A stretch of 64,000 nt of DNA from Desulfuromonadaceae bacterium (GTDB taxonomy: Bacteria > Desulfobacterota > Desulfuromonadia > Desulfuromonadales > JAHYIW01): positions 1 to 64,000 of the forward strand of contig JAHYIW010000018.1 of assembly GCA_019429445.1 (NCBI GenBank). Direction: 5' to 3'. Below the pieces are notes generated by a model, which did not search any database, was not told where the DNA came from, and was given only the letters and a program-made list of their open reading frames with translations. Positions 40,485 to 57,762 of the stretch are shown here, in pieces; position 1 is the stretch's first letter; each line of letters begins with the position of its first letter. The translations under genes were made by a program, and so were the position numbers.

Positions 40485-40773
40485 GTGGTGCGCGATCCCC
40501 CGTTTGTCAGCCTGTTTTCATTTCTGACCGGATACATTTGCGGTTGTAAGCAGTCGCACGATGCCCTTATAATCTGATTCTAAAAATATTTTCACAAGTT
40601 TGTCGCGGTCGAAGCCGGGATGTGGATTGATGGTGGATCAACGGGAACGCATGCAGCGCTGAGAGATGAAATTCTTCGGCGCTTTTTTTGTTGGGATGGG
40701 GTGGGTGTGACTTATTATGTCATGATTAGGCGATAGAATTTGCAATAATTCATTGCCATCAGGAGGTGTGTTT
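40485..40773. other. Intergenic region upstream of the cas operon
   Basis: No convincing gene. A second hairpin with a T run occurs at 40655-40689 (AGCGCTGA / TCGGCGCT then seven T), well separated from the kor terminator, which may end a small transcript or a lost gene. A TAGAAT at 40734-40739 could be the cas -10, and TGAC-N7-GTCA (40708-40722) lies over the -35 position; both are tentative. Confidence 0.4.
40655..40689 (+). terminator. Second hairpin-T-run upstream of cas3
   Basis: AGCGCTGA (40655-40662) pairs with TCGGCGCT (40676-40683) with one G-T pair and is followed by TTTTTT. No recognised gene ends here. Confidence 0.6.
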
Positions 40774-43509
40774 GTGGAGGATTTATTAAAAGTGAAGTCG
40801 TTTTATAGCTACTGGGGCAAGACAGCAGAGGACGGGAGTTATCATCTGCTGCCCTATCACTGCCTGGACGTGGCGGCGGTTGGTCGTGTACTCCTATCGA
40901 AGGATGCTGTATTGCGACGCAAATTTGCGACCATTATGGGTCTCGATGAATTAATGTGCACTCGCTGGATGGTTCTGTTCCTGGCTTTTCACGACGTAGG
41001 TAAATTCTCTGAAAGTTTTCAAAATCTTCAACCAGCCCTATTGAAGAAACTACAAACTATTACCAGCACTAAGCAATACACAGCACGCCATGACAGCCTC
41101 GGTAATCTTTTTCTTAAATCTGCCTTTGAGAACGAAAACCTCGCATTCCCCTTAAATGAGTCATTCGACAATTGGCAAGATGTCACTATGTCAATTGTTA
41201 GAGCATATACCGGTCATCACGGCGTACCGCCGCAGATGAGAGGGATAAACGGCTTGCCCTTGAATTTTTCCAGTTACTTTGGCGAAAGTGATTCCGCCGT
41301 CGCAGAACAGTTTGCTCGCGAAGTTGGCTTACTGATTTGCGGCCCCCCCGAAGAATATATACTTCCATCACCGGTTGAACTTGAAGAACGGATGAAAAAA
41401 GCATCATGGCTGATGGCCGGTTTTGCTGTACTCTGCGACTGGATCGGATCGAACAACACTTGGTTCCCATTCTGCGAAGAAATGATGCCACTTAGTGATT
41501 ACTGGATAACTCGCGCCATTCCGCAAGCCGAGCAGGCTATTCGTGAAGCGGGGATCAATACCGGAATGCCAATATCTGAACTGTCCGGGTTTTCGGGACT
41601 ATTCCCGAAAATAGCTGTTCCAACACCATTGCAGACGTTTGTCGACCACTGTCCGATTGGAAATTCGCCTCAACTTTTCATCCTTGAAGATGTCACCGGT
41701 TCCGGCAAGACAGAGGCGGCGCTGCTTCTGTCTGGGCGGTTGATGACTGCCGGGTGCGGGAACGGCTTTTTTGTAGCGCTGCCGACCATGGCAACTTCCA
41801 ATGCCATGTATGACCGCATGATCGAAGTCTACCAGCGGCTGTTTACCAAGGGGACATCTCCCTCGATTGTGCTGGCCCACGGCGCACGCCATCTCTCAGA
41901 AACCTTCATGACCTCGGTTGCCGGACACAGTGCTGCTTCATTAGATGAAGAATCAGCTTCCGCTCAATGCTCAGCATGGTTGGCGGACAATCGTAAAAAG
42001 GCACTCTTAGCGGAGGTGGGTGTGGGCACACTTGATCAGGCACTGCTGGCGGTGTTACCGGCCCGTTTCCAGTCCTTGCGGCTCTTCGGTCTGGCGAGCC
42101 ATATCCTGATCGTAGACGAGGTCCATGCCTACGACCCGTACATGAACAAGTTGCTGCAAAACTTGCTGGCCTTCCATGCCGCCCTTGGTGGTAGCGCAAT
42201 TTTGCTTTCGGCGACATTGCCGACACATATCAGACGTGATTTCATTGCTGCCTTTGCCCGTGGTTGTGATGTCCAACAGAAACCAGTGCTATCAAGCTGT
42301 GCTTATCCTCTGGCAACCGCCTATAGCAAGGAAGCTGGGATACAGGAAAGACCGATTGAAGCCACACCTCAACGCCGCTGTCGTGTGGCGGTAGACCTTG
42401 TTGCTGATGAATCAGGAGTGATATGTCAGATTGTGGAAGCGGCAAACAAGGGCTGGTGCGTCTGCTGGATTAGAAACACCGTGCATGACGCGCTGCACGG
42501 CTATACACAGTTAAAGGATCGGCTGGCGAAAGATAGTTTGATGCTGTTCCATGCCCGTTTTGCTATGGGTGATCGTCTGGATATTGAGAGTGCCGTTACC
42601 TCGGCTTTTGGCAGGACGAGTTCAGCACACGAGCGAAGCGGCAAGGTGCTGATCGCGACACAAGTCGTTGAACAATCACTTGATTTGGACTTCGACTTGT
42701 TGGTTACTGATTTGGCTCCTATGGATCTGCTGATTCAGCGTGCCGGTCGGCTTCATCGACACCCGCGTGATGCACAAGGAAATCAGTTGGCAGAAGGACC
42801 AGACAGACGGGAGTCTCCCCGCCTGATTATTCATGGCCCGCTTCCCGATGATAATGTTGCTGACCACTGGTATAAAGCGGCGTTTCCTAAGGCAGCTTTC
42901 GTCTATCCAAGCCATGGTTGTCTTTGGTTGACAGCTAAACTTTTGGCAGAAAAAAAAGAGCTAAAGATGCCGGATGATGCACGGGAGTTGATTGAGGCGG
43001 CATTTTTAGAGAGCGCAGATAGAATTCCCGTGCCGCTACAGCAACGTGATATTCAAGCTGATTCTAAATGGCAGGCGGATAAGTCCCTCGCTCATATCAA
43101 CATGCTCAAGCTGGAGGAGGGATACGAAGCTACCGTAAACCAGTGGCGGGAAGACATGAAAACCCCGACTCGGTTGGGCGAGATGGTCACCACAGTACGC
43201 TTGGCTCGATGGGATGGCACGTGTTTGACCCCTTGGTATTCTCACGGAAGATTTTCGTGGGACATGAGTCAGGTGAGTATCCGATGTGGTTTGGTTAATG
43301 AAGAAATTACGCATGTTGGTGGTCTGGGCGACGCTGTTGCTCGTTTAAAAGAGCAGTTACCGGACAAAGGTAAGTGGACGGTTTTTGTTCCACTTCAACG
43401 CGGTGATGATGGGCGTTGGCATGGTGTGGCAATGAACAAAAGCCAGGAAATTATGACCCTGGAATATGACCCCCTGACTGGAGTCACGGTCACAAAGAAG
43501 GAGGGATAG
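40774..43509 (+). CDS. cas3: Cas3 nuclease-helicase (type I-E)
   Basis: 911 aa. N-terminal HD nuclease: YHCLDVAAVG, FLAFHDVGKFSESF, RHDSLGNLFL, TGHHGVPP and LCDWIGSN supply the metal ligands. Helicase: Walker A VTGSGKTEAALLL, DEVH box at residues 448-451, SATLP, and motif VI QRAGRLHRHPR. It unwinds and degrades target DNA after Cascade recognition. GTG 40774 is chosen because AGGAGG (40761-40766) lies seven bases upstream; the TTG at 40753 precedes that site. The stop abuts the cse1 start, so it is the first gene of an eight-gene cas operon. Confidence 0.95.
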   Translation: MEDLLKVKSFYSYWGKTAEDGSYHLLPYHCLDVAAVGRVLLSKDAVLRRKFATIMGLDELMCTRWMVLFLAFHDVGKFSESFQNLQPALLKKLQTITSTKQYTARHDSLGNLFLKSAFENENLAFPLNESFDNWQDVTMSIVRAYTGHHGVPPQMRGINGLPLNFSSYFGESDSAVAEQFAREVGLLICGPPEEYILPSPVELEERMKKASWLMAGFAVLCDWIGSNNTWFPFCEEMMPLSDYWITRAIPQAEQAIREAGINTGMPISELSGFSGLFPKIAVPTPLQTFVDHCPIGNSPQLFILEDVTGSGKTEAALLLSGRLMTAGCGNGFFVALPTMATSNAMYDRMIEVYQRLFTKGTSPSIVLAHGARHLSETFMTSVAGHSAASLDEESASAQCSAWLADNRKKALLAEVGVGTLDQALLAVLPARFQSLRLFGLASHILIVDEVHAYDPYMNKLLQNLLAFHAALGGSAILLSATLPTHIRRDFIAAFARGCDVQQKPVLSSCAYPLATAYSKEAGIQERPIEATPQRRCRVAVDLVADESGVICQIVEAANKGWCVCWIRNTVHDALHGYTQLKDRLAKDSLMLFHARFAMGDRLDIESAVTSAFGRTSSAHERSGKVLIATQVVEQSLDLDFDLLVTDLAPMDLLIQRAGRLHRHPRDAQGNQLAEGPDRRESPRLIIHGPLPDDNVADHWYKAAFPKAAFVYPSHGCLWLTAKLLAEKKELKMPDDARELIEAAFLESADRIPVPLQQRDIQADSKWQADKSLAHINMLKLEEGYEATVNQWREDMKTPTRLGEMVTTVRLARWDGTCLTPWYSHGRFSWDMSQVSIRCGLVNEEITHVGGLGDAVARLKEQLPDKGKWTVFVPLQRGDDGRWHGVAMNKSQEIMTLEYDPLTGVTVTKKEG

Positions 43510-45171
43510 ATGCAATTCAATCTGATTGATGAACAATGGATACCGGTAATCCGCCGGGATGGAACAAAAACCATGATTGCCCCCTGGGAGGTGACGAAGG
43601 ACTTTAGCGAAAATCCGGCAGTTTTTCTCGATGCTCCCCGTCCGGATTTCAATGGTGCACTGATCCAGTTTCTGATTGGGTTGGTTCAGACGGTTTCCGC
43701 GCCACAGAATAGGTCGGAATGGCACAAGAGGCTAACAGACCCGTACGCGCCGAGTGAACTGAAAGAGAAGTTTTCGTCGGTGCGACATGCCTTTGAGCTA
43801 GGAGGGGATGGGCCAAGGTTCATGCAGGATTTTGAAAAACTTATCGTCAACCAAGGCGAAATCGATGGTCTTTTGATCGACATGCCAGGGGAAAGCACAA
43901 CCAAGAAGAACACGGATCATTTTGTAAAACGTAATACTGTGGTTGGAATGTGTCCGTCATGCACTACTACAGCCCTTTATGCTATGCAGACTAATGCACC
44001 AGCTGGTGGACAAGGGAATCGAACTTCATTGAGAGGTGGCGGGCCACTTACAACGCTAGTTACCGGAGATAAGCGGCACGAAACCTTATGGCAACTTGCG
44101 TGGCTGAATGTTCTGGAGTTCGGGACATTTTCTAATATTTGCGGTAACGCTGGCCTAGCCACAGATTCAAGTAAGTTTCCTTGGATGGTAACAACCCTGA
44201 CAAGTGAGAAAAAAGAAAGTGTCTCTCAACCGACCGACTTTCATCCATCAGTAATGTATTGGGGTATGCCACGACGTATAAGGCTGAACCTAGAAGATTT
44301 AATGTCAGGCAATTGTGACATGTGTGGCAAGTCATCCGAGGCTCTGATTAACAAGTATCAGCAAAAAAACTTTGGGATGAATTTCACCGGAGCTTGGTTA
44401 CATCCGTTGTCGCCGTACAATGCAAGTAACGGTAGCGAACCAATTCCAGCACACCCTCAACCTGGTGGAATAAGTTATCGGCACTGGCTTGGTCTTGTTC
44501 AGCAAGACAATAGCGATAACAAGATGCCAGCTCGTGTTGTTCATGAATTTATCAACCACCGCCAACGAGATGGTTGGCAGTTCCGCATTTGGGCCTTTGG
44601 TTATGATATGAAAAACATGAATGCTCGTTGTTGGTATGAGTCGTCAATGCCGCTGTTATACATTGATTCCTCTATCAGATCAGAATATGAAAATATCGTG
44701 GCAAACATGATCAAGGCGGCAGTTCTTGTAGGGGGCAATCTGAGGATTGGTCTTAAGAATTCGATACATGGCCGAGCTGTTGTTGACCCGATTACTCGAA
44801 AGATCAAATGGGAATACAAGGATATAAAGAAACTCCCTATTGATGAAGATAAGCGGCGAGCGAAAGTTCTTTTCGAAACAAAAGAGGATACCTCTTTGGT
44901 CTCAGTAGAATCCTCTTTCTGGCAAAACACAGAGCCTAAATTTTATGCACTACTGATAGATATTTCGAAAGACTTAGTGAGAGGAACAGTACCGAATCCT
45001 TATCTGAAAGAATGGCATAACTCTCTTTGTTTTGAGGCTGAAAAAATGTTTGATGCATATTCTTGGGAGTTAACCATTGAGGATTCTGATCCAAAACGGA
45101 TAGTTCTGTCTCGTAGCGAACTGCAGAAATTCAATAGGAGCAATATGATCACAAATCTTCTCAAATTATAG
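43510..45171 (+). CDS. cse1: Cascade large subunit Cse1/CasA (Cas8e)
   Basis: 553 aa. Large subunit of type I-E Cascade, reads the PAM and recruits Cas3. N-terminus FNLIDEQWIPVIRRDG is typical; two cysteine pairs (CPSC near 148 and CDMC near 272) could bind zinc, as in some homologues. Other family segments are GPLTTLVTGD, TWMGxP-like WGMPRRIRL and HPLSPY. ATG 43510 directly follows the cas3 stop. Complete and uninterrupted. Confidence 0.93.
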   Translation: MQFNLIDEQWIPVIRRDGTKTMIAPWEVTKDFSENPAVFLDAPRPDFNGALIQFLIGLVQTVSAPQNRSEWHKRLTDPYAPSELKEKFSSVRHAFELGGDGPRFMQDFEKLIVNQGEIDGLLIDMPGESTTKKNTDHFVKRNTVVGMCPSCTTTALYAMQTNAPAGGQGNRTSLRGGGPLTTLVTGDKRHETLWQLAWLNVLEFGTFSNICGNAGLATDSSKFPWMVTTLTSEKKESVSQPTDFHPSVMYWGMPRRIRLNLEDLMSGNCDMCGKSSEALINKYQQKNFGMNFTGAWLHPLSPYNASNGSEPIPAHPQPGGISYRHWLGLVQQDNSDNKMPARVVHEFINHRQRDGWQFRIWAFGYDMKNMNARCWYESSMPLLYIDSSIRSEYENIVANMIKAAVLVGGNLRIGLKNSIHGRAVVDPITRKIKWEYKDIKKLPIDEDKRRAKVLFETKEDTSLVSVESSFWQNTEPKFYALLIDISKDLVRGTVPNPYLKEWHNSLCFEAEKMFDAYSWELTIEDSDPKRIVLSRSELQKFNRSNMITNLLKL

Positions 45172-45200
45172 GGGCAGCTGAATCACAAAAAGGAGGTTGC

Positions 45201-45701
45201 ATGAGTACGAAGTATTTAAATTTCGAAAAAAATTCACCTGAGATGCAGGCGCTTGCTGCTTGGTGGCAGGCGTTGAACGACAACAGAGGAGATCGGGCCG
45301 AACTGCGACGATGCGCAACCTTGGCCGAGGTGGCATTTACTCCGGCCTATCACCGATTGCGTCTGGCTGTTGGCCGATTTGGTGCGCCACATGATGATGG
45401 TCTGGCCCTTGTCGCAGGCCTGGCAGCTCGTGTGAAAAATGATATTGCCAATAGTCCGTTTGCAGAGCAGATGGCAACCGGCAAGGCAGACGGCTCTGCC
45501 AGGGTAAGCGGCCTGCGCTTCCGGAGACTGCTCAAGGTAAAGGAGCCTGATGAGCTGTTTACTGCCATGGGGCGCGTGGTGGCCCTTTTGGGAAACGCAG
45601 TCAATCTGCAAAACCTTGCCAAAAGTGTTTATTTCTGGAACGACAGAACCCGCAAACAGTGGGCTTTTGAATACTATTCGAAATCACCGTCAGAACAATA
45701 A
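45201..45701 (+). CDS. cse2: Cascade small subunit Cse2/CasB
   Basis: 166 aa, the usual size. Helical small subunit, present in two copies on the Cascade belly where it stabilises the displaced strand. Recognisable by AAWWQALNDNRGDRAELRRC and SGLRFRRLLKVKEPDELF. ATG 45201 follows AAAGGAGG (45189-45196), 29 bp after cse1. Confidence 0.9.
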   Translation: MSTKYLNFEKNSPEMQALAAWWQALNDNRGDRAELRRCATLAEVAFTPAYHRLRLAVGRFGAPHDDGLALVAGLAARVKNDIANSPFAEQMATGKADGSARVSGLRFRRLLKVKEPDELFTAMGRVVALLGNAVNLQNLAKSVYFWNDRTRKQWAFEYYSKSPSEQ

Positions 45702-45729
45702 CTCATATCGCCCAAAGGAGAACTTGAAC

Positions 45730-46782
45730 ATGAGTACATTTATCCAACTGCATCTGCTGACTTCGTACCCCCCTTCTAACCTCAACCGCGATGATCTGGG
45801 GCGTCCCAAGACTGCTATCATGGGAGGCAAAACCCGCTTGCGTGTTTCGTCCCAGAGTCTCAAGCGGGCTTGGCGAACATCGGATCTGTTTACCGAAGCG
45901 ATGAAGGGACACATTGGCACCCGTACCAAGACGATGGGAGTCGAGATATATAATGCACTGAGGGCAAAAGGGGTTGCCGAAGGTAATGCTAAAACATGGG
46001 CTAAACAGATTGCCGAAGTCTTCGGAAAAGCCAAAAAAACAAATGCTGCCAAACCACTGGAAGAGCTAGAAATTGAGCAACTTGCTCACTTTAGCCCGGA
46101 GGAGAACATCGCAATGTTTGTCCTTGCTGACAAACTTGCGGCAAGCAACACGGCCCCTTCTGCTGATGATCTCAAGCTGTTAATGAAGAACCATTCTGCC
46201 GTTGATATCGCCATGTTTGGCCGGATGTTGGCCAGTTCACCCGCTTTCAATACTGAAGCCGCTGTGCAGGTTGCTCACGCCGTAACCGTTCACGACGTGG
46301 CGGTCGAAGACGATTACTTTACTGCTGTCGATGACCTGAATAATGGCGAGGATGACTTGGGGGCAGCTCACATCGGCGAAACCGAATTTGGCGCCGGGGT
46401 GTTCTATCTCTATCTCTGTATCAATCGTGATCTGTTGGAGGCGAACCTCGGAGATAAAACGCTAGCAAAGAAGTCGCTTGCTGCACTGGTTGAGGCCGCA
46501 GCCAAAGTAGCACCAAACGGAAAGCAGAACAGTTTTGCTTCTCGCGCTTATTCTTCCTACATACTGGTTGAAAAGGGCGACCAGCAGCCCCGTTCACTCT
46601 CGGTTGCATTCCTCAAGCCGGTGCGCGGAGAAGATGTCCTGGGTAAGGCTATTACAGAAATTGAGAGCAAGCGGGCGAACATGGAAAAGGTTTACGGCAA
46701 ATGTGCAGAGGCTACGAAAACCATGAATGCTGAAACTGGAGCAGGCAGTCTGGACGAAATCATTACTTTTGTAACGGAGTAG
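45730..46782 (+). CDS. cas7: Cascade backbone subunit Cas7e (CasC/Cse4)
   Basis: 350 aa. Forms the six-subunit backbone holding the crRNA. N-terminus MSTFIQLHLLTSYPPSNLNRDDLG and KTRLRVSSQSLKRAWR are typical, and FGRMLA and the SFASRAYSSYILVEKGDQQPRSLSVAFLKPV segments fit the family. The frame is open further upstream, but ATG 45730 has AAAGGAG (45714-45720) before it and gives the correct N-terminus. Three bases separate it from cas5. Confidence 0.94.
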   Translation: MSTFIQLHLLTSYPPSNLNRDDLGRPKTAIMGGKTRLRVSSQSLKRAWRTSDLFTEAMKGHIGTRTKTMGVEIYNALRAKGVAEGNAKTWAKQIAEVFGKAKKTNAAKPLEELEIEQLAHFSPEENIAMFVLADKLAASNTAPSADDLKLLMKNHSAVDIAMFGRMLASSPAFNTEAAVQVAHAVTVHDVAVEDDYFTAVDDLNNGEDDLGAAHIGETEFGAGVFYLYLCINRDLLEANLGDKTLAKKSLAALVEAAAKVAPNGKQNSFASRAYSSYILVEKGDQQPRSLSVAFLKPVRGEDVLGKAITEIESKRANMEKVYGKCAEATKTMNAETGAGSLDEIITFVTE

Positions 46783-46785
46783 ACC

Positions 46786-47517
46786 ATGCGCGATTATTTG
46801 CTTTTCCGCCTGTATGGGCCGCTGGCCGCGTGGGGTGATATTGCCGTGGGTGAGTATCGCCCCAGCTTCGCCCATCCCAGCAAATCGGCCATTATCGGGC
46901 TTTTAGCTGCTGCTCTTGGTATCCGCCGTGATGAGGAAGACCGCCAGAGAGCTCTGGCCGAATCCTGTTCCTTTGCCGTCAGGGTTGATTCCATGGGAGT
47001 GCTTTTGCGTGACTATCACACAACTCAGGTCCCTTCTGTCAAGAAAGGAGTTGTGCACTACACCCGGCGTTCCGAGTTGGCAGCGGATAAACTCAATACT
47101 ATTCTTTCCAGTCGCGATTACCGTTGTGACGCTGCCTATACGGTGGCCATTACAGTAACAGAGGGTTCACTTCACACTGTCCAACAATTGGCAATTGCTC
47201 TGGGAAAACCGGTCTTTGCCCTTTATCTGGGACGCAAGTCATGTCCGCTTGCCCTGCCATTACAGCCACAGGTTGTCAACGCGGCAACATTGCGCGAGGC
47301 TCTAGAGTCAATACCCACGGCCGAAGAGTTCTCGGAAATAATTCAGAAAGGTGCTGTCACAGTTTTCTGGGAAGATGACAAGTCGAGCGGGCTTGAACGG
47401 CAGCAATCTATAACCCGGCGTGACGAACTGCGATCACGCAAGCGCTGGCAGTTTAGTGAGCGACAAGAAAACTGCGGTATTCTGCGGAAGGGGGAAGAAC
47501 CATGTACTTCAGTATGA
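46786..47517 (+). CDS. cas5: Cascade subunit Cas5e (CasD)
   Basis: 243 aa. Binds the 5' handle of the crRNA and caps the backbone. N-terminus LLFRLYGPLAAWGDIAVGEYRPSF (Cas5 RAMP motif) and HPSKSAIIGLLAAALGIRR; GKPVFALYLGRKSCPLALPL is the family C-terminal signature. It overlaps cas6e by 16 bp. Confidence 0.93.
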   Translation: MRDYLLFRLYGPLAAWGDIAVGEYRPSFAHPSKSAIIGLLAAALGIRRDEEDRQRALAESCSFAVRVDSMGVLLRDYHTTQVPSVKKGVVHYTRRSELAADKLNTILSSRDYRCDAAYTVAITVTEGSLHTVQQLAIALGKPVFALYLGRKSCPLALPLQPQVVNAATLREALESIPTAEEFSEIIQKGAVTVFWEDDKSSGLERQQSITRRDELRSRKRWQFSERQENCGILRKGEEPCTSV

Positions 47518-48173
47518 TCAAGCTCCGGCGGGATGTTTCCCCGCGTGACATAACTGAGCTGACTAGAATGAACGGATACCAGGCGCATCAAATGATCTGG
47601 AATCTGTTTGCCGACCGGCCCGATCGGCAACGGGATTTTATCTATCGCTATGAAGCGGTCAATGGCTGGCCAACCTTCTATACGGTTTCAAAACGCGAGC
47701 CGGTTGATGCTTCCGGGATGTGGGAAATACTGCCAAAGGAATACACGCCCCAACTTCGGGCCGGTCTGCGCCTTGGTTTTACCGCATGCGTTAATCCAAT
47801 CCGCTCACGTCGAGATGAAAACGGCAGACAACAGCGTCATGACGTGGTGATGGAGGAGAAGCTGCAACTAAAGAGCGATGGGAAGGACTTTGATCTGCCA
47901 GAAATTGTTCAGAATATCGGCATGCGGTGGCTGGATGAAAGATCTGCCACCTATGGATTCAATATTTCAAAGGAAGGAATCAGGGTTGATGGCTACCGGC
48001 AGCACAAGTTGTTCAAAGGAAGGAACGACAAACCCATAACTTTCAGTACGCTGGATTTTAACGGCATTTTGACGGTCACCGATCCGGCTGTTTTTGTGGA
48101 GAAGTGTTTGTTTGACGGCATAGGCCCGGCCAAAGGTTTTGGCTGTGGGTTGATGCTAGTTCGGCGGGTTTAA
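47502..48173 (+). CDS. cas6e: Cas6e crRNA-processing endoribonuclease (CasE)
   Basis: 223 aa. Cuts the pre-crRNA within the repeat hairpin and stays bound to the 3' stem. The probable catalytic histidine lies in GYQAHQMIWNLF (near residue 26), and the C-terminal glycine-rich loop is GIGPAKGFGCGLMLV. Start codon ATG 47502 lies within the cas5 end. A degenerate duplicate of the 3' end of this gene follows immediately downstream (48175-48206). Confidence 0.94.
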   Translation: MYFSMIKLRRDVSPRDITELTRMNGYQAHQMIWNLFADRPDRQRDFIYRYEAVNGWPTFYTVSKREPVDASGMWEILPKEYTPQLRAGLRLGFTACVNPIRSRRDENGRQQRHDVVMEEKLQLKSDGKDFDLPEIVQNIGMRWLDERSATYGFNISKEGIRVDGYRQHKLFKGRNDKPITFSTLDFNGILTVTDPAVFVEKCLFDGIGPAKGFGCGLMLVRRV

Positions 48174-48174
48174 T

Positions 48175-48267
48175 GCTGCCATCGGCCCTGCCAAAGCCTT
48201 TGGCTGCAGATTGGAAGAGCAGTTGTATCCTAACCAGAAGTTTTCATACGGCAAGGATGGTAACAAT
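48175..48267 (+). other. Degenerate duplicate of the cas6e 3' end
   Basis: The bases encoding IGPAKAFGCRL (48181-48213) closely repeat the IGPAKGFGCGL codons of cas6e at 48119-48151. The fragment is in frame with the BRO-type gene that follows, with no stop between. It looks like a relic of a second cas6e end brought in with the insertion. Confidence 0.6.
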
Positions 48268-49101
48268 ATGACGGAAAAGCTGGCAGTTTTTAAGGGCAAT
48301 GAAATTCGCCGCATCATTCACAACAATGAATGGTGGTTCGTGATAACAGATGTCGTTTCTGCTTTGACAGATTCGGTGAATCCATCCGACTATATCAAGA
48401 AAATGCGGAGTCGTGACAAGGAGTTAACCAAAGGGTGGGGACAAATTGTCACCCCCCTTTCAATTGAAACACCTGGCGGTAATCAGAAGCTCAACTGCGC
48501 CAACACTGAAGGCATCTTCCGTATCATCCAGTCGATCCCTTCCCCCAAGGCCGAACCCTTCAAACGCTGGCTGGCCAAGGTCGGCTATGAGCGCGTACAG
48601 GAAATCTAAGATCCCGAACTCGGCACCGCCCGTACCCGTGAGCTGTACCGCGCCAAGGGGTACTCGGAGGCCTGGATCGAAAAGCGCATGCGCGGCATCG
48701 CTGTCCGCGCTGAACTGACTGAAGAATGGAAGAATCGTGCCGTCGGTGAATCGGCTGAATACGCCATTTTGACAGCTGAAATCTCCAAGGCGACCTTCGG
48801 CGTGACCCCATCCGAGTACAGGGAAATGAAGCAGCTCGACCGCGAAAACCTGCGCGACCATATGACTGATCTGGAATTAATCTTCTCCATGCTCGGTGAG
48901 GCGGCTACTACAGAAATTACTCGCACTCAGGATGCGCGAGGTTTTGGCGAAAACAAAGTTGCGGCCAAAAAGGGGGGTTCGATCGCCGGTGAAGCACGCG
49001 AAAAATTGGAAGTGGAATCGGGGCGCAAGGTGGTGACAAAGGAAAACTACCTGGATGCGCCGGAAAGTCAAAAAAGACTGAAGAAGGAACAACCAAAATA
49101 A
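48268..49101 (+). pseudogene. BRO-family (DinD-like) gene interrupted by an in-frame stop
   Basis: One reading frame runs from ATG 48268 to 49101 except for TAA at 48607-48609. Before the stop: a BRO-N domain (AVFKGNEIRRIIHNNEWWFVITDVV ... EGIFRIIQSIPSPKAEPFKRWLAKVGYERVQEI). After it the frame resumes with DPELGTARTRELYRAKGYSEAWIEKRMRG, exactly as expected for DinD-like proteins, through 49101. A GAA-to-TAA change explains it. An independently translated C-terminal piece from ATG 48688 is possible. The gene is inserted between cas6e and cas1; function of the family is uncertain (DNA-damage- and phage-associated). Confidence 0.82.
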
Positions 49102-49122
49102 TCAGAAACGTGGGGGGAGCTC

Positions 49123-50335
<1,213 letters not shown>

Positions 50336-50406
50336 AATTGAGTAAAAAAGCTGGTAGAATTTAACGCTCATTGAAAAGTGAATAATTTCAGAGAGATAGA
50401 AGAAGT
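50336..50406 (+). promoter_or_regulatory. CRISPR leader
   Basis: 71-bp A/T-rich stretch between the cas2 stop and the first repeat. In type I-E systems the leader carries the array promoter and guides insertion of new spacers, so the youngest spacers are at this end. No IHF site was confidently recognised. Confidence 0.75.
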
Positions 50407-51228
50407 GAGTTCCCCGCACCCGCGGGGATGAACCGATCGAGCTGCTGCCCGTATTGCAGCACCTGAAGAGTTCCCCGCACCCGCGGGGATGAACCGCGTC
50501 CGTGCAGGCGCAGCTATAAAAACACATGGAGTTCCCCGCACCCGCGGGGATGAACCGTTCCATGCTGGCCGCCATCACCGCCGCCGCCGGAGTTCCCCGC
50601 ACCCGCGGGGATGAACCGTCAATCAAGCCTCACGTTAAGGACTCTACAGCGAGTTCCCCGCACCCGCGGGGATGAACCGGTATGCCAGATTGAGCAATGC
50701 CCCTGCATCTGGAGTTCCCCGCACCCGCGGGGATGAACCGTCCTTAAAATTGATCGGCGTGAGTTTGTTGAGGAGTTCCCCGCACCCGCGGGGATGAACC
50801 GACCGCCTGTGGATGCTCGTGTCCGACGCCGAAGAGTTCCCCGCACCCGCGGGGATGAACCGTCACCAAGGGCGCTGCCACTGCCGCCGCCGCCGAGTTC
50901 CCCGCACCCGCGGGGATGAACCGGTTCTTAAAATTGATCGGCGTGAGTTTGTTGAGAGTTCCCCGCACCCGCGGGGATGAACCGGCTTGGGCGCGGGTAT
51001 ATTCGTTCCATAGACTGAGTTCCCCGCACCCGCGGGGATGAACCGCCGATTATTCCTCCCATCAACCGCTCAGTGACGAGTTCCCCGCACCCGCGGGGAT
51101 GAACCGGTCGGTGATTATACCCTGACCATCATCGAGCCGAGTTCCCCGCACCCGCGGGGATGAACCGACATACACAATGCAATACTAGAAGCCGGGGATG
51201 AGTTCCCCGCACCCGCGGGGATGAACCG
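50407..51228 (+). CRISPR. CRISPR array, leader-proximal part: 14 repeats, 13 spacers
   Basis: Repeats of 29 bp begin GAGTTCCCCGC and end GGGGATGAACCG, with a CCCCGC/GCGGGG stem, the type I-E pattern. Starts are 50407, 50468, 50529, 50590, 50651, 50712, 50773, 50834, 50895, 50956, 51017, 51078, 51139 and 51200, a strict 61-bp period (32-nt spacers). All repeats look identical. The spacers after repeats 6 and 9 are nearly the same sequence. The last repeat is followed by 22 bases of a spacer that is interrupted by the integrative element. Confidence 0.99.
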
Positions 51229-51240
51229 GCCCGATAGGTC

Positions 51241-51250
51241 GCCTCCGGAG
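51241..51250 (+). other. Left attachment core
   Basis: GCCTCCGGAG, directly preceded by 12 spacer bases and the last proximal repeat. It contains the palindrome CTCCGGAG. Identical to 57164-57173. Confidence 0.85.
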
Positions 51251-51391
51251 GGCAAAAAACGACTATTTCAGGGTAAAAACGAGTAAACAAGAGACAACCA
51301 AAAAGAACAAAAACCACTTGATAAATTAAATGGTTAAGTTTACTATCTTGTTTATTGGTGTTTTCTGAATATACACCGTTTTTTATTCTCT

Positions 51392-51415
51392 CCGGAACAC
51401 ATAGGGAATTTTTTT
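51392..51415 (+). repeat. 24-bp direct repeat, left copy (possible integrase arm site)
   Basis: CCGGAACACATAGGGAATT followed by five T; identical to 57052-57075. It lies between the left core and the integrase start, the expected place for an arm-type recombinase or excisionase site. Confidence 0.7.
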
Positions 51416-51435
51416 TTGAAGGGAATAGCCTTGAT

Positions 51436-52683
51436 ATGAAAGCGAAAATTGACAAAAAACTGTTAAAAAACCTGTCTCCAAATGCCACTTTGATCGATAT
51501 TTACGACACAGGACACCCCGGATTAGTATTGCGGGTACTCCCAAGCGGCACCATGACTTATTTTTTAGTTTACCATATTGATGGCCGTAAACGCCGAATG
51601 AAGATCGGGAACGCGGCAACGATGACCCCCACGCAAGCGCGTGACGTTTGCCGAATCAAGGCCGCAGAAGTAGCCTTTGGCGGTGACCCCGGAAAAGACC
51701 TCCTCCTGAAACGCACAGAACGCGTTGAAGCAAAAGGAAAGACCGTTGGCGGATACTTTGAGCTGACATATAAACCAATGATCGAAGAGCGAGACAAAAG
51801 CGGAAAAGCAACCGCCGCAAGAATCAAGGCTTGCTTTGAACAGGATTTTTTCAATAAAGCACTCTCGGAAGTTACGCCACTTATGATTCATGCGTGGAGA
51901 AAAAAACGCTTGGCCTCCGTGACCCCGCACACAGTGAACCGCGACGAAAACGCATTTAAAGCGATGCTGGCCAACGCCGCTGAAATGGGCAAGATCGCCA
52001 AGTCACCGTTGGCGGGAATGAAAAAAATAAAGTGCGCCGACAATAGCCGCGTGCGGTACCTGTCCAAAGATGAACAAGACCGCCTTCACGCTGCCCTTGA
52101 TCAACGCGAGCGAAACGCAATAGACGCCCGCCACCGGCTGAACGAATGGCGACGGCAGCGCAACCTTGACCCGTTGCCCGCGTTCCCCGAAGCAGGGTTT
52201 ATTGACCACCTGCAACCAATAATTATTTTGGCGATGAATACCGGCCTCCGCCGGGGGGAATTGTTCAGCCTGCTATGGTCTGACCTCGACCTGATCAATA
52301 ATAGTTTGACTGTACGTGCCGCCGCTGCAAAAGGCGCAAGAAAGCGCCATGTTCCTCTAAACAAAACCGCCCGCGCCATGTTGAAACGCTGGGGGAAAGA
52401 CAAAGACACCTCCGGCCTTGTGTTCCCCGGCAAAGGGGGCAAGCGTCTTGATAATATTTCGACATCATGGAGCAATCTTCTGACCGCTGCACAGATCGAT
52501 GGGTTTAACTTCCACGACCTGCGCCACCATTTCGCCACCATGACACTAAAGGCCGGTTGTGACATTGTCACCCTCTCAAAGTTACTTGGTCACAAAACGC
52601 TTGAAATGACCCTGCGTTACGCCCACGTCACCGACGAAGCAGCGGTTTCCGCCGTTGACCGACTGGCCGAGGGTGGAGTATGA
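51436..52683 (+). CDS. int: Tyrosine-family site-specific integrase
   Basis: 415 aa. N-terminal arm-binding DUF4102-like domain (LVLRVLPSGTMTYFLVYHIDGRKRRMKIGNAATMTPTQARD), a core-binding region and a catalytic domain with R272 (GLRRGEL), H360 and R363 (HDLRHHF), H386 (LGHKTLEM) and Y395 as the nucleophile. It should catalyse integration at tRNA-type sites. ATG 51436 follows AAGGG; the frame extends upstream to 51355 but through the 24-bp repeat. It overlaps the next gene by 4 bp. Confidence 0.93.
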   Translation: MKAKIDKKLLKNLSPNATLIDIYDTGHPGLVLRVLPSGTMTYFLVYHIDGRKRRMKIGNAATMTPTQARDVCRIKAAEVAFGGDPGKDLLLKRTERVEAKGKTVGGYFELTYKPMIEERDKSGKATAARIKACFEQDFFNKALSEVTPLMIHAWRKKRLASVTPHTVNRDENAFKAMLANAAEMGKIAKSPLAGMKKIKCADNSRVRYLSKDEQDRLHAALDQRERNAIDARHRLNEWRRQRNLDPLPAFPEAGFIDHLQPIIILAMNTGLRRGELFSLLWSDLDLINNSLTVRAAAAKGARKRHVPLNKTARAMLKRWGKDKDTSGLVFPGKGGKRLDNISTSWSNLLTAAQIDGFNFHDLRHHFATMTLKAGCDIVTLSKLLGHKTLEMTLRYAHVTDEAAVSAVDRLAEGGV

Positions 52684-53324
52684 AGCAGCGAACTTATAAA
52701 GCGCACCACCTGACCGCTGAGTCAAGGGCGAATCTTTACGAGCTGGCACTTGATGCTGGCGACCGTTTTAACCGGAAACACTTTAAATGCCCACACCGCG
52801 TTAAAAATTCAATCAAGGCCGGGGAGCCGCGCGGCTGGGGGCCGAATTGTAAGGGCGAAAAGTGTTCAGGGAGTCTAGTCGGAAGAATTGACCTTGCAAG
52901 CAAAATTCAAGAGGCAATGAATCTTGCCGAGATCGAAAAGGCCGGACTGCTTCATTCAAGAACAACGTGGGCCGGGGAGTATAGCCCGGCACGCGGCTTA
53001 AAACGGATTGAGGCGGCAATCAGGCGCGCCGAAGCAGCGGGCAGGGATACAACCATAATGCGCCGCAACGCTGAGCGGTTCCGGCAAGCAATCGACACCC
53101 GACCGGGCCGCAAAGGTGGCCGCAAGGGAAACCGCCGCATTGATGGACAAGAAACAAGGCTGGCGATTGCGGTTGCAGAGATATTGAAACAAGTTGGCGC
53201 CCCCGTCCATGATTATGCAGGCGACTCCGTGGGCCAACAGGTTATATTTGAGGCCGTGGCGGCTGTTTTCGGGCCACTGTCTGAAGAAAAAAAAGAGACA
53301 ATCCGCAACGCTATCAAAAGATAA
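52680..53324 (+). CDS. Hypothetical protein of the integrative element
   Basis: 214 aa, not recognised. Basic, with a possible zinc-type cluster near residues 37-60 (CPHRV ... CKGEKC) and a later arginine/glycine-rich stretch (RPGRKGGRKGNRR). Its start overlaps the integrase stop (ATGA), so it is co-translated. No membrane segment. It could act in DNA binding, but this is only inference. Confidence 0.6.
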   Translation: MKQRTYKAHHLTAESRANLYELALDAGDRFNRKHFKCPHRVKNSIKAGEPRGWGPNCKGEKCSGSLVGRIDLASKIQEAMNLAEIEKAGLLHSRTTWAGEYSPARGLKRIEAAIRRAEAAGRDTTIMRRNAERFRQAIDTRPGRKGGRKGNRRIDGQETRLAIAVAEILKQVGAPVHDYAGDSVGQQVIFEAVAAVFGPLSEEKKETIRNAIKR

Positions 53325-53428
53325 CCCCCCCCCGCAAAAAAAAATGCAAAAAGACAATTAAGCGGGATTTTTTCCCGCCCTTCCACGCTGTAACCTCCAA
53401 GAAACAATGAGACATAGGAGGCTACCCC

Positions 53429-53680
53429 ATGCAACCCACCACACCCGAATCAGCAGTCTTAAACGAATGCGCCGCAGCAACTTATGTTGGCGTAAGTACG
53501 CAGTTCTTGCGGCAGTCGCGACACTATGGAACCCGACCCGGTCACGCTGAAGGGCCGCCGTTCGTCCGCCTTGGCGGTGGGCGGGCGATTCGATATTTAA
53601 AAGCCGACCTTGACGCGTGGTTGCAAAATCACCGCTGCGAGCCAACCCCGTTACCGGCAGAATTCAAGAGGGGTAATTAA
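53429..53680 (+). CDS. AlpA/MerR-like helix-turn-helix protein (possible excisionase)
   Basis: 83 aa. LNECAAATYVGVSTQFLRQSR followed by FVRLGGGRAIRYLKADLDAWL is the compact winged-helix pattern of AlpA/excisionase-type (HTH_17) proteins. Such proteins regulate or direct integrase excision in P4-like satellites. ATG 53429 follows AGGAGG. It lies in the element after a 104-bp noncoding gap. Confidence 0.78.
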   Translation: MQPTTPESAVLNECAAATYVGVSTQFLRQSRHYGTRPGHAEGPPFVRLGGGRAIRYLKADLDAWLQNHRCEPTPLPAEFKRGN

Positions 53681-53682
53681 CG

Positions 53683-53958
53683 ATGACCGGAAACACAAAA
53701 GCCGCGGGAGGGACCGCGGCAATTGCGAAACAAAAAACTAACTTCGATGACTCAAACCATACCGCACCCCGCCGCTCACGTCAAGCGCAAACCGCTGACC
53801 TTCCACGCCGGCACCCGGAATTCGTCGTTGAATATGGAATTTACTTCTATCACCTCCGCCGTGCGGCAGTCGCCGGGAACGATCAAGCCCGCCGGATTCT
53901 TTGCCGCTTCGAGACCGCCGCACGTTTGGCCGACCGTGCCGAAGGATGGAAAATATGA
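53683..53958 (+). CDS. Small hypothetical protein of the integrative element
   Basis: 91 aa, not recognised. N-terminus is low-complexity (TKAAGGTAAIAK), the C-terminal half is helical and mixed charge (FYHLRRAAVAGNDQARRILCRFETAARLADRAEGW). Overlaps the ATPase gene by 4 bp (ATGA), which supports it being translated. Confidence 0.5.
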   Translation: MTGNTKAAGGTAAIAKQKTNFDDSNHTAPRRSRQAQTADLPRRHPEFVVEYGIYFYHLRRAAVAGNDQARRILCRFETAARLADRAEGWKI

Positions 53959-55169
53959 CATATCTACCGCCGGGCTACACCCCAGACTTCGAGACCGACC
54001 CTGAAGGGTTCGCCGTTCATCAGGCCATGCAACTATCAGCACCGCCAGACGATCACGCCGCACCGGTCAAATCTGAGCGCCGAAAATTAGCCTTCACCGA
54101 TCTTGCCGAGACAATCGACAGCCCGGTTATTTTTGACTGGTTAATCGACGAACTCATTGAGGCAGAAACCACCGGCGCGATATTCGGAGCCAGCACAGCC
54201 GGAAAATCTTTTTTCGCCGTTGACCTCGCGGCTGCAGTGGCAACCGGCGGTGAATTTCTCGGCCACCGTGTCATGAAACAAGGGCCGGTCATTTATCTGG
54301 CCCTTGAGGGCGCAAGAGGGATTCCGCGCCGATTTAAAGCTTGCTATGCCCACCGTGGCGAAGACTACCAAACAGGGCAAGTTTTTTGTTGTTCCGGGCC
54401 GTTAACCTTTGACCGGGCAAGTACCGCCGAGCTGATCGGCGCAATTGAGGCCGCAAGTATTCCGCCGGTGCTGATCGTTATCGACACTTTGGCGCGATCG
54501 TTTGCCGGCAACGAGAACGACGCCGGAGACATGATGCGCTTCATCAATTCGGTCGACGAAATCCGCAACCACTTCACGGCGACGATGTTGATTATTCATC
54601 ACACGGGGCACGGCGCTGAAACATCTGGACGCGCACGCGGTTCAAGTACGTTTCGTGCCGCCATGGATTTTGAAATTTTGATCGACAAGAACGCCAACAC
54701 CGTGACCTTCACAAAAATGAAAGACGCCGAGACACCGCCGCCGATGAGCTACCGCCTTGAGAGCCACGAAGATTCAGCAGTTTTTGTTTGTGACGGAACC
54801 GCCTCACCTCATGCCGGAGGGCCACGGTTATCAGCTGGCGAGCAGTTGGGTATCGATACGCTGGCGAGCATTCCACAACCGGCCCACCTTGATGACTGGC
54901 GACAAGCGTTTTATGCGAGAAGCACCGCCGACAGTTTGGACGGAAAGCGACAAGCATTTCACCGAGCAAGAACAGGTCTACAGCACAAGGGAACGATCAC
55001 CGTCAACGACGATCATTATTCATTATCAGAGCGTGACAACCGTGACACCCCTATACCCCCTGTCACGCTGTCACGCTACGATTCAGACCGTGACGCCGTG
55101 ACTTGTCACGCTCCTGTCACGGTTGTCACGCATGATGATGACCTTCTAAACGTCGATTTTGAGAGGTGA
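53955..55169 (+). CDS. RepA-like AAA/RecA-fold ATPase
   Basis: 404 aa. Walker A GASTAGKSFFAVDLA, Walker B VLIVIDTLAR and IIHHTGHG are the features of the RSF1010 RepA / AAA_25 helicase family, which act as hexameric replicative helicases on plasmids and integrative elements. ATG 53955 follows GAAGGA and overlaps the previous stop; ATG 53946 is an alternative. The last 40 residues are rich in DRDTP and VTHDD-type repeats (near the GTGACA-rich DNA at 55030-55135), a low-complexity tail. It may let the element replicate after excision. Confidence 0.82.
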   Translation: MTYLPPGYTPDFETDPEGFAVHQAMQLSAPPDDHAAPVKSERRKLAFTDLAETIDSPVIFDWLIDELIEAETTGAIFGASTAGKSFFAVDLAAAVATGGEFLGHRVMKQGPVIYLALEGARGIPRRFKACYAHRGEDYQTGQVFCCSGPLTFDRASTAELIGAIEAASIPPVLIVIDTLARSFAGNENDAGDMMRFINSVDEIRNHFTATMLIIHHTGHGAETSGRARGSSTFRAAMDFEILIDKNANTVTFTKMKDAETPPPMSYRLESHEDSAVFVCDGTASPHAGGPRLSAGEQLGIDTLASIPQPAHLDDWRQAFYARSTADSLDGKRQAFHRARTGLQHKGTITVNDDHYSLSERDNRDTPIPPVTLSRYDSDRDAVTCHAPVTVVTHDDDLLNVDFER

Positions 55170-55173
55170 GCCA

Positions 55174-55518
55174 ATGGACTTTTATATCACTGTGAAACCT
55201 TTCCGGTGCCGGGGCGAACTGGTCAAACCCGGTGAAGTTCTGGAAATCCCGGATGACATTGTTGGTCAACTCGGAGATCGTGTTGAGCGTGCCGACTGTT
55301 ACCGAATGCTTCAAGCAACCACCGAGCGCCTGAACGCGCAATCGTGTTGGCCAGAAGATTTTCGGCAGCGGATGCCGCCCGACGTACGGAGGCAGATTGT
55401 GGAGCTGGAGCGTCAGCTTGATGATTCAATTTCCGACGGCGACGTTGAAACGACCGTCAAAAAATTGACGGAATGGGAGATAGTTCTACTTGAGCAACTG
55501 AAGCGGCAGCAGCACTGA
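55174..55518 (+). CDS. Hypothetical protein of the integrative element
   Basis: 114 aa, not recognised. N-terminal part has a short beta-rich segment (FYITVKPFRCRGELVKPGEVLEIPDDIV) resembling the small domains found in phage hypothetical proteins; C-terminal part is a helix (VRRQIVELERQLDDSISD). ATG 55174 follows GAGGTGAG. Four bases after the ATPase stop. Confidence 0.6.
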   Translation: MDFYITVKPFRCRGELVKPGEVLEIPDDIVGQLGDRVERADCYRMLQATTERLNAQSCWPEDFRQRMPPDVRRQIVELERQLDDSISDGDVETTVKKLTEWEIVLLEQLKRQQH

Positions 55519-55530
55519 AAGGGCAAAAAA

Positions 55531-55785
55531 ATGACCACAAAAAAACCAGCAATTATCAACGATCCAGAATACTTACCGGACAAGGTACCCCGCATTGCTT
55601 TATCAAAAGTCGGGCATGTGCGGAGCGAGCTGGCCAGCGTCTACCGACAAGCCAGAAACGGCAAGGTCGACCTGAGCGACGCGACAAAGCTTGCATATAT
55701 CTTGGTGGCAATCGGCAGGTTAATTACCGACCACGAACTTGAAAAACGGATTGAAGCACTGGAGGACCGGAACGATGAATCTTGA
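55531..55785 (+). CDS. Small hypothetical protein of the integrative element
   Basis: 84 aa, not recognised. Helical, e.g. RSELASVYRQARNGKVDLSDATKLAYILVAIGRLI and ELEKRIEALEDR (short coiled coil). Overlaps the next gene by 11 bp. The DLSDATKLAYIL pattern is common in small phage/element proteins of unknown function. Confidence 0.55.
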   Translation: MTTKKPAIINDPEYLPDKVPRIALSKVGHVRSELASVYRQARNGKVDLSDATKLAYILVAIGRLITDHELEKRIEALEDRNDES

Positions 55786-56149
55786 AAAACGACTGGCAAA
55801 ACTTGAGCAGCGCCACGGCAGCGACGTTCCAGAAAGCTTGTTCATGTTGGAGTGTTGGCAGCATTGGAACATGTGTCCGCGCCTGCCATTTGAGACCGCC
55901 GAACAGGCCGAAGAGTTGCGCGGCTGGGGGCACCCGGAAAATAGTTATCAGCGACCTGAGCCGCCCCAAGATGATGCCGATTTGCTCTTGTCCGTCGCCT
56001 ATTCGAACGCCAGCAGAATCGGGCTGACCACCGCGCCGGATGCCGATGCCTACCGCCGTGAACGACTCGCATACTACCGCGCCGGGCACCTCGACCTGAT
56101 CCACACGGCCATTATTAAATCATTTTATGACCGCAAAGACCCGGCCTAA
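55775..56149 (+). CDS. Hypothetical protein of the integrative element
   Basis: 124 aa, not recognised. Begins MNLEKRLAKLEQRHG (short coiled coil) followed by an acidic, tryptophan-containing middle (CWQHWNMCPRLPFET) and a helical end. ATG 55775 follows GGAGG (55761-55765) inside the previous gene, which supports translation. Confidence 0.55.
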   Translation: MNLEKRLAKLEQRHGSDVPESLFMLECWQHWNMCPRLPFETAEQAEELRGWGHPENSYQRPEPPQDDADLLLSVAYSNASRIGLTTAPDADAYRRERLAYYRAGHLDLIHTAIIKSFYDRKDPA

Positions 56150-56194
56150 CGGCCACCAACCGGGCATGACGCCCAAAACGAAAGGAACACCATT

Positions 56195-56797
56195 ATGTGG
56201 AACGCACTGAATTCAAGACTCCAACCGGCAGTTGACAAAATCACCGACGATGGATTGCGGTACTCTACCACCCAAAAAATGAAAGAGATTGTCGCCGCCG
56301 AACAGACTTTCAGGCAGGAGGAACGGCGGTTAACAAACGACCGGAATCTTTCCGCCCAAGGGAAGTCCGAGAAAATCCGGGCCGCCGCCAAGGAAGCACG
56401 TGAGAAAATCGAAGCTATCGTCGCCCGCGACCTGTACAAGTCGGATGCTGAAACAATTCTTGCGGAACTTCCGAAAAACGAGTACGGCGACCCAATTTTG
56501 CTCCAACTTCAGGGCCAAGAATTCCGCCGGTCGCTGGAAAACACAAACCCGGAATTGGTCAAGGTAAACTACTTGGCCGAAATTTTGGAGGGCGACACCC
56601 CGCTGGTTAGATACCTTGAAACGTCGCCTTGTCCGCCGGATTATGTGACGGACGACACCCGAGCTACGTCACGCCTTGTACGGTTGGCCCTCAATCACCC
56701 AACAAAAGCCAAAAAACTGAAAGACTTGCAGACCGCCGCTGAGGCATGGAAAATCTACTCCAATGCCGCAATTCAGTTGCTATCGCGGTACGTTTAA
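56195..56797 (+). CDS. Hypothetical protein of the integrative element
   Basis: 200 aa, not recognised. Long charged helices (MKEIVAAEQTFRQEERRLTNDR, AAKEAREKIEAIVARDLYKSD) resemble phage coiled-coil proteins. Preceded by AAAGGA at 56180-56185 and followed by a terminator. Last gene of the element operon. Confidence 0.6.
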   Translation: MWNALNSRLQPAVDKITDDGLRYSTTQKMKEIVAAEQTFRQEERRLTNDRNLSAQGKSEKIRAAAKEAREKIEAIVARDLYKSDAETILAELPKNEYGDPILLQLQGQEFRRSLENTNPELVKVNYLAEILEGDTPLVRYLETSPCPPDYVTDDTRATSRLVRLALNHPTKAKKLKDLQTAAEAWKIYSNAAIQLLSRYV

Positions 56798-56817
56798 GAG
56801 ACAGTCACGCAGCACGC

Positions 56818-56858
56818 AAAGCGGTTCACTTCTAACGAGGTGGGCCGCTTTTTTTTGC
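56818..56858 (+). terminator. Terminator of the element's gene cluster
   Basis: AAAGCGG (56818-56824) pairs with CCGCTTT (56845-56851) and is followed by further T residues; inner bases CAC/GTG add to the stem. Confidence 0.8.
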
Positions 56859-57051
56859 GCCGGTTTCGTTTTATTTTCCGTCAATCAATTTCACACAGTG
56901 AAATCATGTTACAGAAACTATGCGGAACGGTTCTTGCCGATATCTTGACGTTCTGCCAGATAGAACGAAACCCGCGCACCTCTTTTCAGCATAAGCCGCC
57001 GGAACCTGATCACCCCCTTGAAGTTTTTTGGAGCGGTGTTTGTCTGTTTCA

Positions 57052-57075
57052 CCGGAACACATAGGGAATTTTTTT
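57052..57075 (+). repeat. 24-bp direct repeat, right copy (possible integrase arm site)
   Basis: Exact copy of 51392-51415, 88 bp inside the right core. In the excised circle both copies would flank the attachment site, as arm-type sites do. Confidence 0.7.
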
Positions 57076-57090
57076 AAAATCACATCAAAA

Positions 57091-57128
57091 AAGGGGCAGC
57101 CAAAAACTGGCTAACCCCTTGATTTTAT
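57091..57128 (+). terminator. Hairpin near the right end of the element
   Basis: AAGGGG and AGCCA (57091-57101) pair with TGGCT and CCCCTT (57108-57120), followed by GATTTTATT. It may end transcripts before they enter the distal array. Confidence 0.6.
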
Positions 57129-57173
57129 TGGCGCGCGATGCAGGATTCGAACCTGCGACCTCTGCCTCCGGAG
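57129..57173 (-). other. 3' half of tRNA-Arg(CCG) carried by the element (not an intact tRNA)
   Basis: On the minus strand the 45 bases correspond to tRNA positions 32-76: anticodon loop CTCCGGA (anticodon CCG), 5-base variable loop, T arm GCAGG-TTCGAAT-CCTGC, acceptor 3' strand and CCA. Beyond the core the sequence is CRISPR spacer and cannot form the anticodon stem, so no 5' half exists. Elements that target tRNA genes carry such a 3' end to restore the gene after insertion. Confidence 0.85.
57164..57173 (+). other. Right attachment core
   Basis: GCCTCCGGAG, identical to 51241-51250, followed by ten bases that complete the interrupted spacer before the repeat at 57184. Confidence 0.85.
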
Positions 57174-57183
57174 TGCGGTAGTC

Positions 57184-57639
57184 GAGTTCCCCGCACCCGC
57201 GGGGATGAACCGTCTCAACCCGTTCGTCAACCAGGGCGGGGATGGAGTTCCCCGCACCCGCGGGGATGAACCGAATATCGTGGCAGCGTCAATGGTGTCG
57301 ATTTTGAGTTCCCCGCACCCGCGGGGATGAACCGTCGCTCCCGCCCCACCTGATCTTGCGCCATCAGAGTTCCCCGCACCCGCGGGGATGAACCGATGAG
57401 TAGGGGGGTGGTGCTGTCACCGTATTTGAGTTCCCCGCACCCGCGGGGATGAACCGTTTTTTGACCGATAACGGTATATGGCCGGGGCGAGTTCCCCGCA
57501 CCCGCGGGGATGAACCGCCCGGCACGAATCCGCTGGTTGATTTCTTCGCGAGTTCCCCGCACCCGCGGGGATGAACCGCGTTATCACGGCTGGAGGGGCA
57601 CAACAAACGAGAGTTCCCCGCACCCGCGGGGATGAACCG
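57184..57639 (+). CRISPR. CRISPR array, leader-distal part: 8 repeats, 7 spacers
   Basis: The same 29-bp repeat in the same orientation, starting at 57184, 57245, 57306, 57367, 57428, 57489, 57550 and 57611, period 61. It is the continuation of the array at 50407-51228, displaced by the integrative element, and holds the oldest spacers. It has no leader or cas gene of its own. The last repeat shows no degeneration. Confidence 0.98.
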
Positions 57640-57762
57640 ATGGTAGCCCCCCTTCTTGTTCACCGACGGGGGAGACTACAGAATTCAAATTTGAAATTTA
57701 TAGACGCGACCGTACGCAAGAGTATGCTTGACCGTGAACCAGATGGCTGAGGGAGTTACACC

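Follow-up and report, generated by a model that had tools for sequence, protein, structure and literature searches.

A tRNA-Arg(CCG)-type integrative element in a spacer of a type I-E CRISPR array from a Desulfuromonadaceae bacterium

The 64,000-nt stretch of DNA analysed here (positions 1 to 64,000 of the forward strand of contig JAHYIW010000018.1, assembly GCA_019429445.1, from a Desulfuromonadaceae bacterium; hereafter the window) carries a type I-E system of clustered regularly interspaced short palindromic repeats (CRISPR), whose array is interrupted by a 5.9-kb integrative element (Table 1). The array consists of 22 identical 29-nt repeats, GAGTTCCCCGCACCCGCGGGGATGAACCG, in a single orientation and in two blocks (14 + 8), and all undisturbed spacers (20/20) are exactly 32 nt long. 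This repeat and spacer architecture, together with a full set of cas genes, places the system in type I-E. PADLOC models matched Cas3e (E-value 1.7e-204), Cas8e (1.2e-105), Cas11e (2.4e-27), Cas7e (3e-103), Cas5e (2.7e-58), Cas6e (4.2e-45), Cas1e (3.9e-121) and Cas2e (8.2e-41). All eight cas genes are open, and cas2, the leader and spacers 1-13 are undisturbed; at the leader, a consensus scan gave a weak promoter-like match (50332-50360). Spacers 6 (50741-50772) and 9 (50924-50955) are one sequence with a 1-base shift and one mismatch, as if one protospacer had perhaps been acquired twice, by slipped processing or from two variants. At the leader-distal end, the last repeat (57611-57680 region) is perfect and non-degenerate; 32 nt beyond it comes a repeat-like GAG start and then divergence, and the array may have lost part of its old end.

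Table 1. Features of the interrupted array and of the element, in positions of the window
Feature	Position	Strand	Evidence or remark
Complete type I-E cas operon: cas3, cas8e, cas11e, cas7e, cas5e, cas6e, (BRO-like pseudogene), cas1e, cas2e	40753..50335	+	Open reading frames, PADLOC models
AT-rich leader, cas2 to repeat 1	50336..50406	+	Position, composition
Leader-proximal array part: repeats 1-14, spacers 1-13	50407..51228	+	14 exact repeats, 61-nt spacing
Spacer 14, split: left 22 nt, core at its end (attL)	51229..51250	+	Repeat spacing, offset comparison
Core GCCTCCGGAG, copy 1	51241..51250	.	10 bp = 7-nt anticodon loop TCCGGAG + 3 stem bases
Integrative element, 5,923 bp including one core copy	51251..57173	+	Core repeats at both flanks; one full copy in genome
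Arm-type repeat at the left, CCGGAACACATAGGGAATTTTTTT; putative arm site of the integrase	51392..51415	+	24-bp identical copy at 57052-57075; role inferred
Tyrosine integrase, 415 aa, arm-binding domain	51436..52683	+	PF00589 1.7e-29, PF13356 9.2e-11, PF24624 7e-06; phrog_1 integrase 1.8e-62
214-aa protein	52680..53324	+	No family match
AlpA/excisionase-like helix-turn-helix protein, 83 aa	53429..53680	+	PF12728 8.1e-05 (under Pfam cut-off); phrog_66 excisionase/regulator 3.4e-05
91-aa protein	53683..53958	+	No family match
RepA/AAA_25-type replicative helicase-like ATPase, 404 aa	53955..55169	+	PF13481 1.1e-36; PDB 1g8y RepA 1.2e-12
114-aa protein	55174..55518	+	No family match
84-aa protein	55531..55785	+	No family match
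124-aa protein	55775..56149	+	No family match
200-aa protein	56195..56797	+	No family match; none in PADLOC
Strong terminator-like hairpin + T run, directed at distal array	56818..56851	+	15-pair stem
Right arm-type repeat	57052..57075	+	Identical to 51392-51415
tRNA-Arg terminator hairpin carried by element	57093..57118	-	57086-57173 matches tRNA-Arg 3' regions across order; hairpin scan
tRNA-Arg(CCG) 3' half, from anticodon loop as far as CCA, into core copy 2	57129..57173	-	Identical to host's intact gene, contig C10
Core GCCTCCGGAG, copy 2 (attR)	57164..57173	.	10-bp perfect match to copy 1
Spacer 14, split: right 10 nt	57174..57183	+	Repeat spacing, offset comparison
Leader-distal array part: repeats 15-22, spacers 15-21	57184..57639	+	8 exact repeats

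The gap between repeat 14 (51200-51228) and repeat 15, which starts at 57184, measures 5,955 nt. The 32-nt stretches that follow repeat 14 and precede repeat 15 share, in register, one identical run of 10 bp, the core. Among the offsets n = 20-45, only n = 32 gave such a run, the other offsets reaching 4 bp at most. Among 200,000 random pairings of 32-mers taken from the window, 10 reached a 10-bp run. Joining the left part through the core to the right part after it yields a single 32-nt spacer, GCCCGATAGGTCGCCTCCGGAGTGCGGTAGTC, in which the core is 12 nt off repeat 14 and 10 nt off repeat 15. A first-pass annotation made from the DNA letters had already located the end of repeat 14, both core copies and the resumption of the repeats, and had reasoned that 22 + 10 nt equals the spacer length and that the two arrays are one, split by integrase-mediated insertion. 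Its coordinates and its arithmetic hold, and the single array is well supported by the common repeat and orientation and the 32-nt phase.

That two independent arrays flank the element, or that the region was misassembled, would have to be considered for a 64-contig draft, as assemblers can be misled by CRISPR repeats. Such an origin is nevertheless very unlikely. The 32-nt phase is unique among the offsets compared, repeat and orientation are the same on both sides, and neither a second leader nor cas genes were found at 57184. Further, the junctions lie in unique sequence and have just 10 bp in common, and the body of the element is single-copy in the genome, where other matches are confined to the right end and to short pieces; it is therefore improbable that the assembly went wrong at both ends precisely at the core. 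Finally, the two junctions together give an attachment site of the free element (attP) that is of proper transfer RNA (tRNA) type. On phase, orientation, unique junctions and this attP, both versions were rejected. An even more remote idea is that Cas1-Cas2 inserted a very large spacer, a scenario raised for SiL-E1 of Sulfolobus islandicus. The insert does sit between two repeats, but it does not abut them: the 12 + 10 nt of spacer outside the core make up, with the core, one normal spacer, and core and integrase account for both ends. The boundaries of the insert thus refute capture by Cas1-Cas2.

The element encodes nine genes, all on the plus strand, and six of the proteins belong to no recognised family. 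In the integrase, the R, HxxR, H and Y motifs were recognised by eye, and relatives of the ATPase occur in viral contigs. No phage structural gene was matched with Pfam or PHROGs, although the small family-less proteins could conceal an anti-CRISPR; likewise, Pfam, PHROGs and NCBIfam recognised no satellite packaging genes (terS, capsid-size control, cos), and no mobilisation gene was recognised in the element.

The right end of the element points to its usual site of integration. An intact tRNA-Arg(CCG) gene is present elsewhere in the host (contig C10, 81416-81492), and attP matches this locus without a difference for at least 104 bp. The identity takes in GGCA to the right of the core, which supports a tRNA origin of attP because a CRISPR spacer gives no reason for those bases. 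The element end was scored as a complete tRNA-Arg(ccg) once the host gene's 5' half was attached to it, whereas in its array context no tRNA was scored; Rfam gave no tRNA match on the right end either, presumably since only half a tRNA is there. In tRNA-directed tyrosine integrases, strand exchange usually takes the 7-bp anticodon loop as its overlap, and the use of secondary sites is established (review PMC8371274). Given the tRNA-Arg(CCG) 3' half and terminator on the element, tRNA-Arg(CCG) is, as judged from sequence, the native attachment site, with the spacer in a secondary role. The first-pass annotation had named the spacer as the integrase's attachment site; it was right about where the insertion lies, but not about the native site. 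By its integrase domains, its identical cores with the 7-bp loop and the tRNA 3' part at its end, the element belongs to the tRNA-anticodon-loop class. The site it occupies, however, is CRISPR spacer 14 and not a tRNA gene, and the case is thus filed as a secondary-site insertion.

The explanation that we favour, with a probability of roughly 0.9, is that a 5.9-kb tRNA-Arg(CCG) element integrated once in spacer 14 of the type I-E array, using it as a secondary attachment site. The tyrosine integrase would normally recombine at the tRNA-Arg(CCG) anticodon loop, spacer 14 would by chance have held the 7-bp overlap, TCCGGAG, together with the three stem bases beside it, and after recombination each end would have kept one copy of the core. 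With the integrase and excisionase-like genes open and the cores perfect, excision would be expected to rebuild the original 32-nt spacer exactly, and the junction of the excised circle would read CTGCCTCCGGAGGGCAAAAAAC.

The exact core decamer is present at several further places in the genome. When up to 3 mismatches to the 17-bp anticodon arm were allowed, the 7-bp overlap was intact in this genome only at tRNA-Arg and the two array junctions. Of the 17 positions of the anticodon arm, the rebuilt spacer agrees at 13, and the mismatches all fall in the stem arms. It could be supposed that the spacer was itself captured from a related element's att site or tRNA, CRISPR memory thereby making the site, and spacer and attP do have in common GCCTCCGGAG as well as a G and a C one base further on. 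However, the rebuilt spacer matches attP and tRNA-Arg at 15 and 16 of 32 positions in total, which is chance level outside the core, and no protospacer was found among phages (best match 20 bp, E = 3, not convincing), in IMG/VR (exact 32-mer) or in GTDB genome contigs (central 22-mer), where no empty array was found either. Capture is therefore rejected, and we regard it as highly improbable.

Beside the host tRNA-Arg lies a diverged second right end of an element (91% identity over ~175 bp, arm-type site included), with one more terminator match upstream. While 57086-57173 matches tRNA-Arg regions order-wide, the extension to 56998 matches the tRNA-Arg flank of this host only (116 genomes searched). 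This peculiarity suggests that the tRNA-Arg site was most likely occupied previously by a related element. The host tRNA-Arg on C10, attR-like and with an arm site alongside, may thus have been a poor partner for the newcomer and may have diverted it to a secondary site. In the same-genus genome G001 (L049, C39:1-300), the sequence 3' of tRNA-Arg(CCG) is wholly unlike that of the present genome from the tRNA 3' end on, and the contig stops ~240 bp later; possibly another element occupies the same tRNA hot spot there.

It should be noted that several points weigh against secondary-site integration in spacer 14 and its proposed effects. The genome is a draft assembly, no relative was found with an uninterrupted array carrying the rebuilt spacer, and G001, the one same-genus genome used as an empty-site comparator, showed neither an array with this repeat nor a convincing cas1. 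At 13/17, other genomic sites could have done about equally well, and the reason for the off-target use is conjecture. The effects on transcription and immunity discussed below are read from consensus scans only.

The nearest integrases found are those of genomes G012 (56% identity) and G074 (43%). Both adjoin tRNA 3' halves, each broken at the anticodon loop, which by-eye reading of the loops identifies as tRNA-Ala(CGC) and tRNA-Val(CAC), respectively. After these halves comes a left end resembling that of the present element, and in G074 (L023) the gene order int, open reading frame, alpA-like, AAA ATPase is the same as here. Class- and phylum-level searches returned no other integrase relatives, and peptide patterns run against GTDB contigs and IMG/VR led to none that was confirmed.

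Integration of mobile DNA into CRISPR loci has been described before, the closest published parallels being prophages with CRISPR repeats as their target. In the accounts drawn on here, phage ΦAP1.1 of Streptococcus pyogenes has the direct repeats in a type II-A array as its integration target and carries the anti-CRISPR AcrIIA23 (PMC9311878; cited in PMC10359306; original Varble et al. 2021, Nat Microbiol 6:1516). As far as those accounts go, both cases involve site-specific integration of a mobile element within a CRISPR array that can neutralise or alter spacers. They differ in that ΦAP1.1 is a temperate phage aimed at repeats, whereas the present core lies within one spacer of a type I-E array, the integrase is of the tRNA-Arg type, and the 5.9-kb element has no recognised phage structural genes or known anti-CRISPR. 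In Sulfolobus islandicus LAL14/1, SiL-E1, a ~2-kb pING1-like plasmid fragment in CRISPR_2, is likewise flanked by two intact array repeats; the authors leave its mechanism open (PMC3718332). Unlike the present element, SiL-E1 has no identifiable attachment sites and directly abuts the repeats. Insertion sequence elements also interrupt CRISPR immunity (PMC10359306), but they do so by transposition into cas genes, in contrast to conservative site-specific recombination in a spacer with the cas genes intact.

With the tRNA anticodon-loop tyrosine integrases (PMC8371274), the present case has in common the 7-bp loop overlap, the tRNA 3' half on the element and the occasional use of secondary sites, and departs from them in that the secondary site is in a CRISPR spacer. 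Similarly, the order int, small open reading frame, alpA-like gene and AAA ATPase resembles that of small satellite-like islands (int, AlpA-like regulator, RepA/primase-type ATPase), although no packaging, capsid or mobilisation gene was recognised and six proteins are family-less. A search covering open-licence papers turned up no previous description of a spacer serving a tRNA-specific integrase as its site. Hence, in that literature, mobile-element integration in CRISPR loci is known and a tRNA-type integrase acting in a spacer is apparently new. The first-pass annotation had called integration into a spacer very unusual; integration into CRISPR loci as such has precedent in ΦAP1.1 and Sulfolobus islandicus.

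The insertion would be expected to divide the array functionally. CRISPR RNA (crRNA) 14 would be lost, as its guide would consist of 22 nt of spacer followed by element sequence, with no repeat downstream. Spacers 1-13 would remain active. Spacers 15-21 would be out of reach of the leader promoter, screened from it by the terminator of the element: they lie 6 kb from the leader behind the hairpin at 56818-56851, after which the consensus scan gave no plus-strand promoter match. From distance, terminator and lack of a promoter match, silencing of these seven older memories is likely. A blunting of immunity, which the first-pass annotation had raised, is plausible. Upstream, no plus-strand terminator was seen by consensus scan between repeat 14 and int (51229-51436), and leader-driven pre-crRNA transcription may read on into the integrase gene.

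Such an arrangement invites the question of counter-defence, namely that insertion into the array was selected, or that the element is evolving that way, to silence older spacers reversibly, as has been proposed for ΦAP1.1. The 6 kb and the strong terminator that part the distal spacers from the leader would suit this purpose, as would the open int and excisionase-like genes, through which excision could restore the array. Against it, the element retains a perfect tRNA-Arg attP and shows no adaptation to repeats, no array spacer resembles it (at least 11 mismatches, the best match being the att site itself), PADLOC gave no defence-related match for the two of its proteins that were submitted, and 13 leader-proximal spacers remain. 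Within the window, none of the other array spacers was found to be self-targeting. With one case only, we consider counter-defence unlikely and accident the default. A broader proposal, that the element acts as a reversible switch of older CRISPR memory and that spacers with anticodon-loop motifs are recurrent, selectable landing sites, is offered as speculation with a slim chance of being correct; if true, immune memory would be edited with the cas genes untouched.

Secondary-site integration in spacer 14 provides a base-level example of an ordinary tRNA-specific integrase taking a CRISPR spacer as its attachment site. As spacers are foreign sequence added at random, each new one is a possible landing site. 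The insertion appears to be tolerated, with the cas genes and newest spacers intact and the older memories probably silenced in a manner that excision could reverse. Collectively, this also matters for array-calling software, as two called arrays may be one that was split by an element.

The neighbourhood holds further genes. A Bro-N gene (PF02498; 48268-49101) lies in the cas operon between cas6e and cas1; an in-frame TAA (48607-48609) interrupts it, the C-terminal part beyond being open, and it would be either a broken gene or one with a stop due to the draft sequence. A second, shorter Bro-N gene (57763-58086) is found just past the distal array end. The two genes have a 46-nt stretch in common (78% identical; other copy at 48508), and the pair flanks cas1-cas2 and the array. 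Beyond the array, a defence cluster (58129-63600) comprises two C5-cytosine methylases, a Vsr endonuclease, an EcoRII-C restriction enzyme and a GmrSD_N/DUF262 protein.

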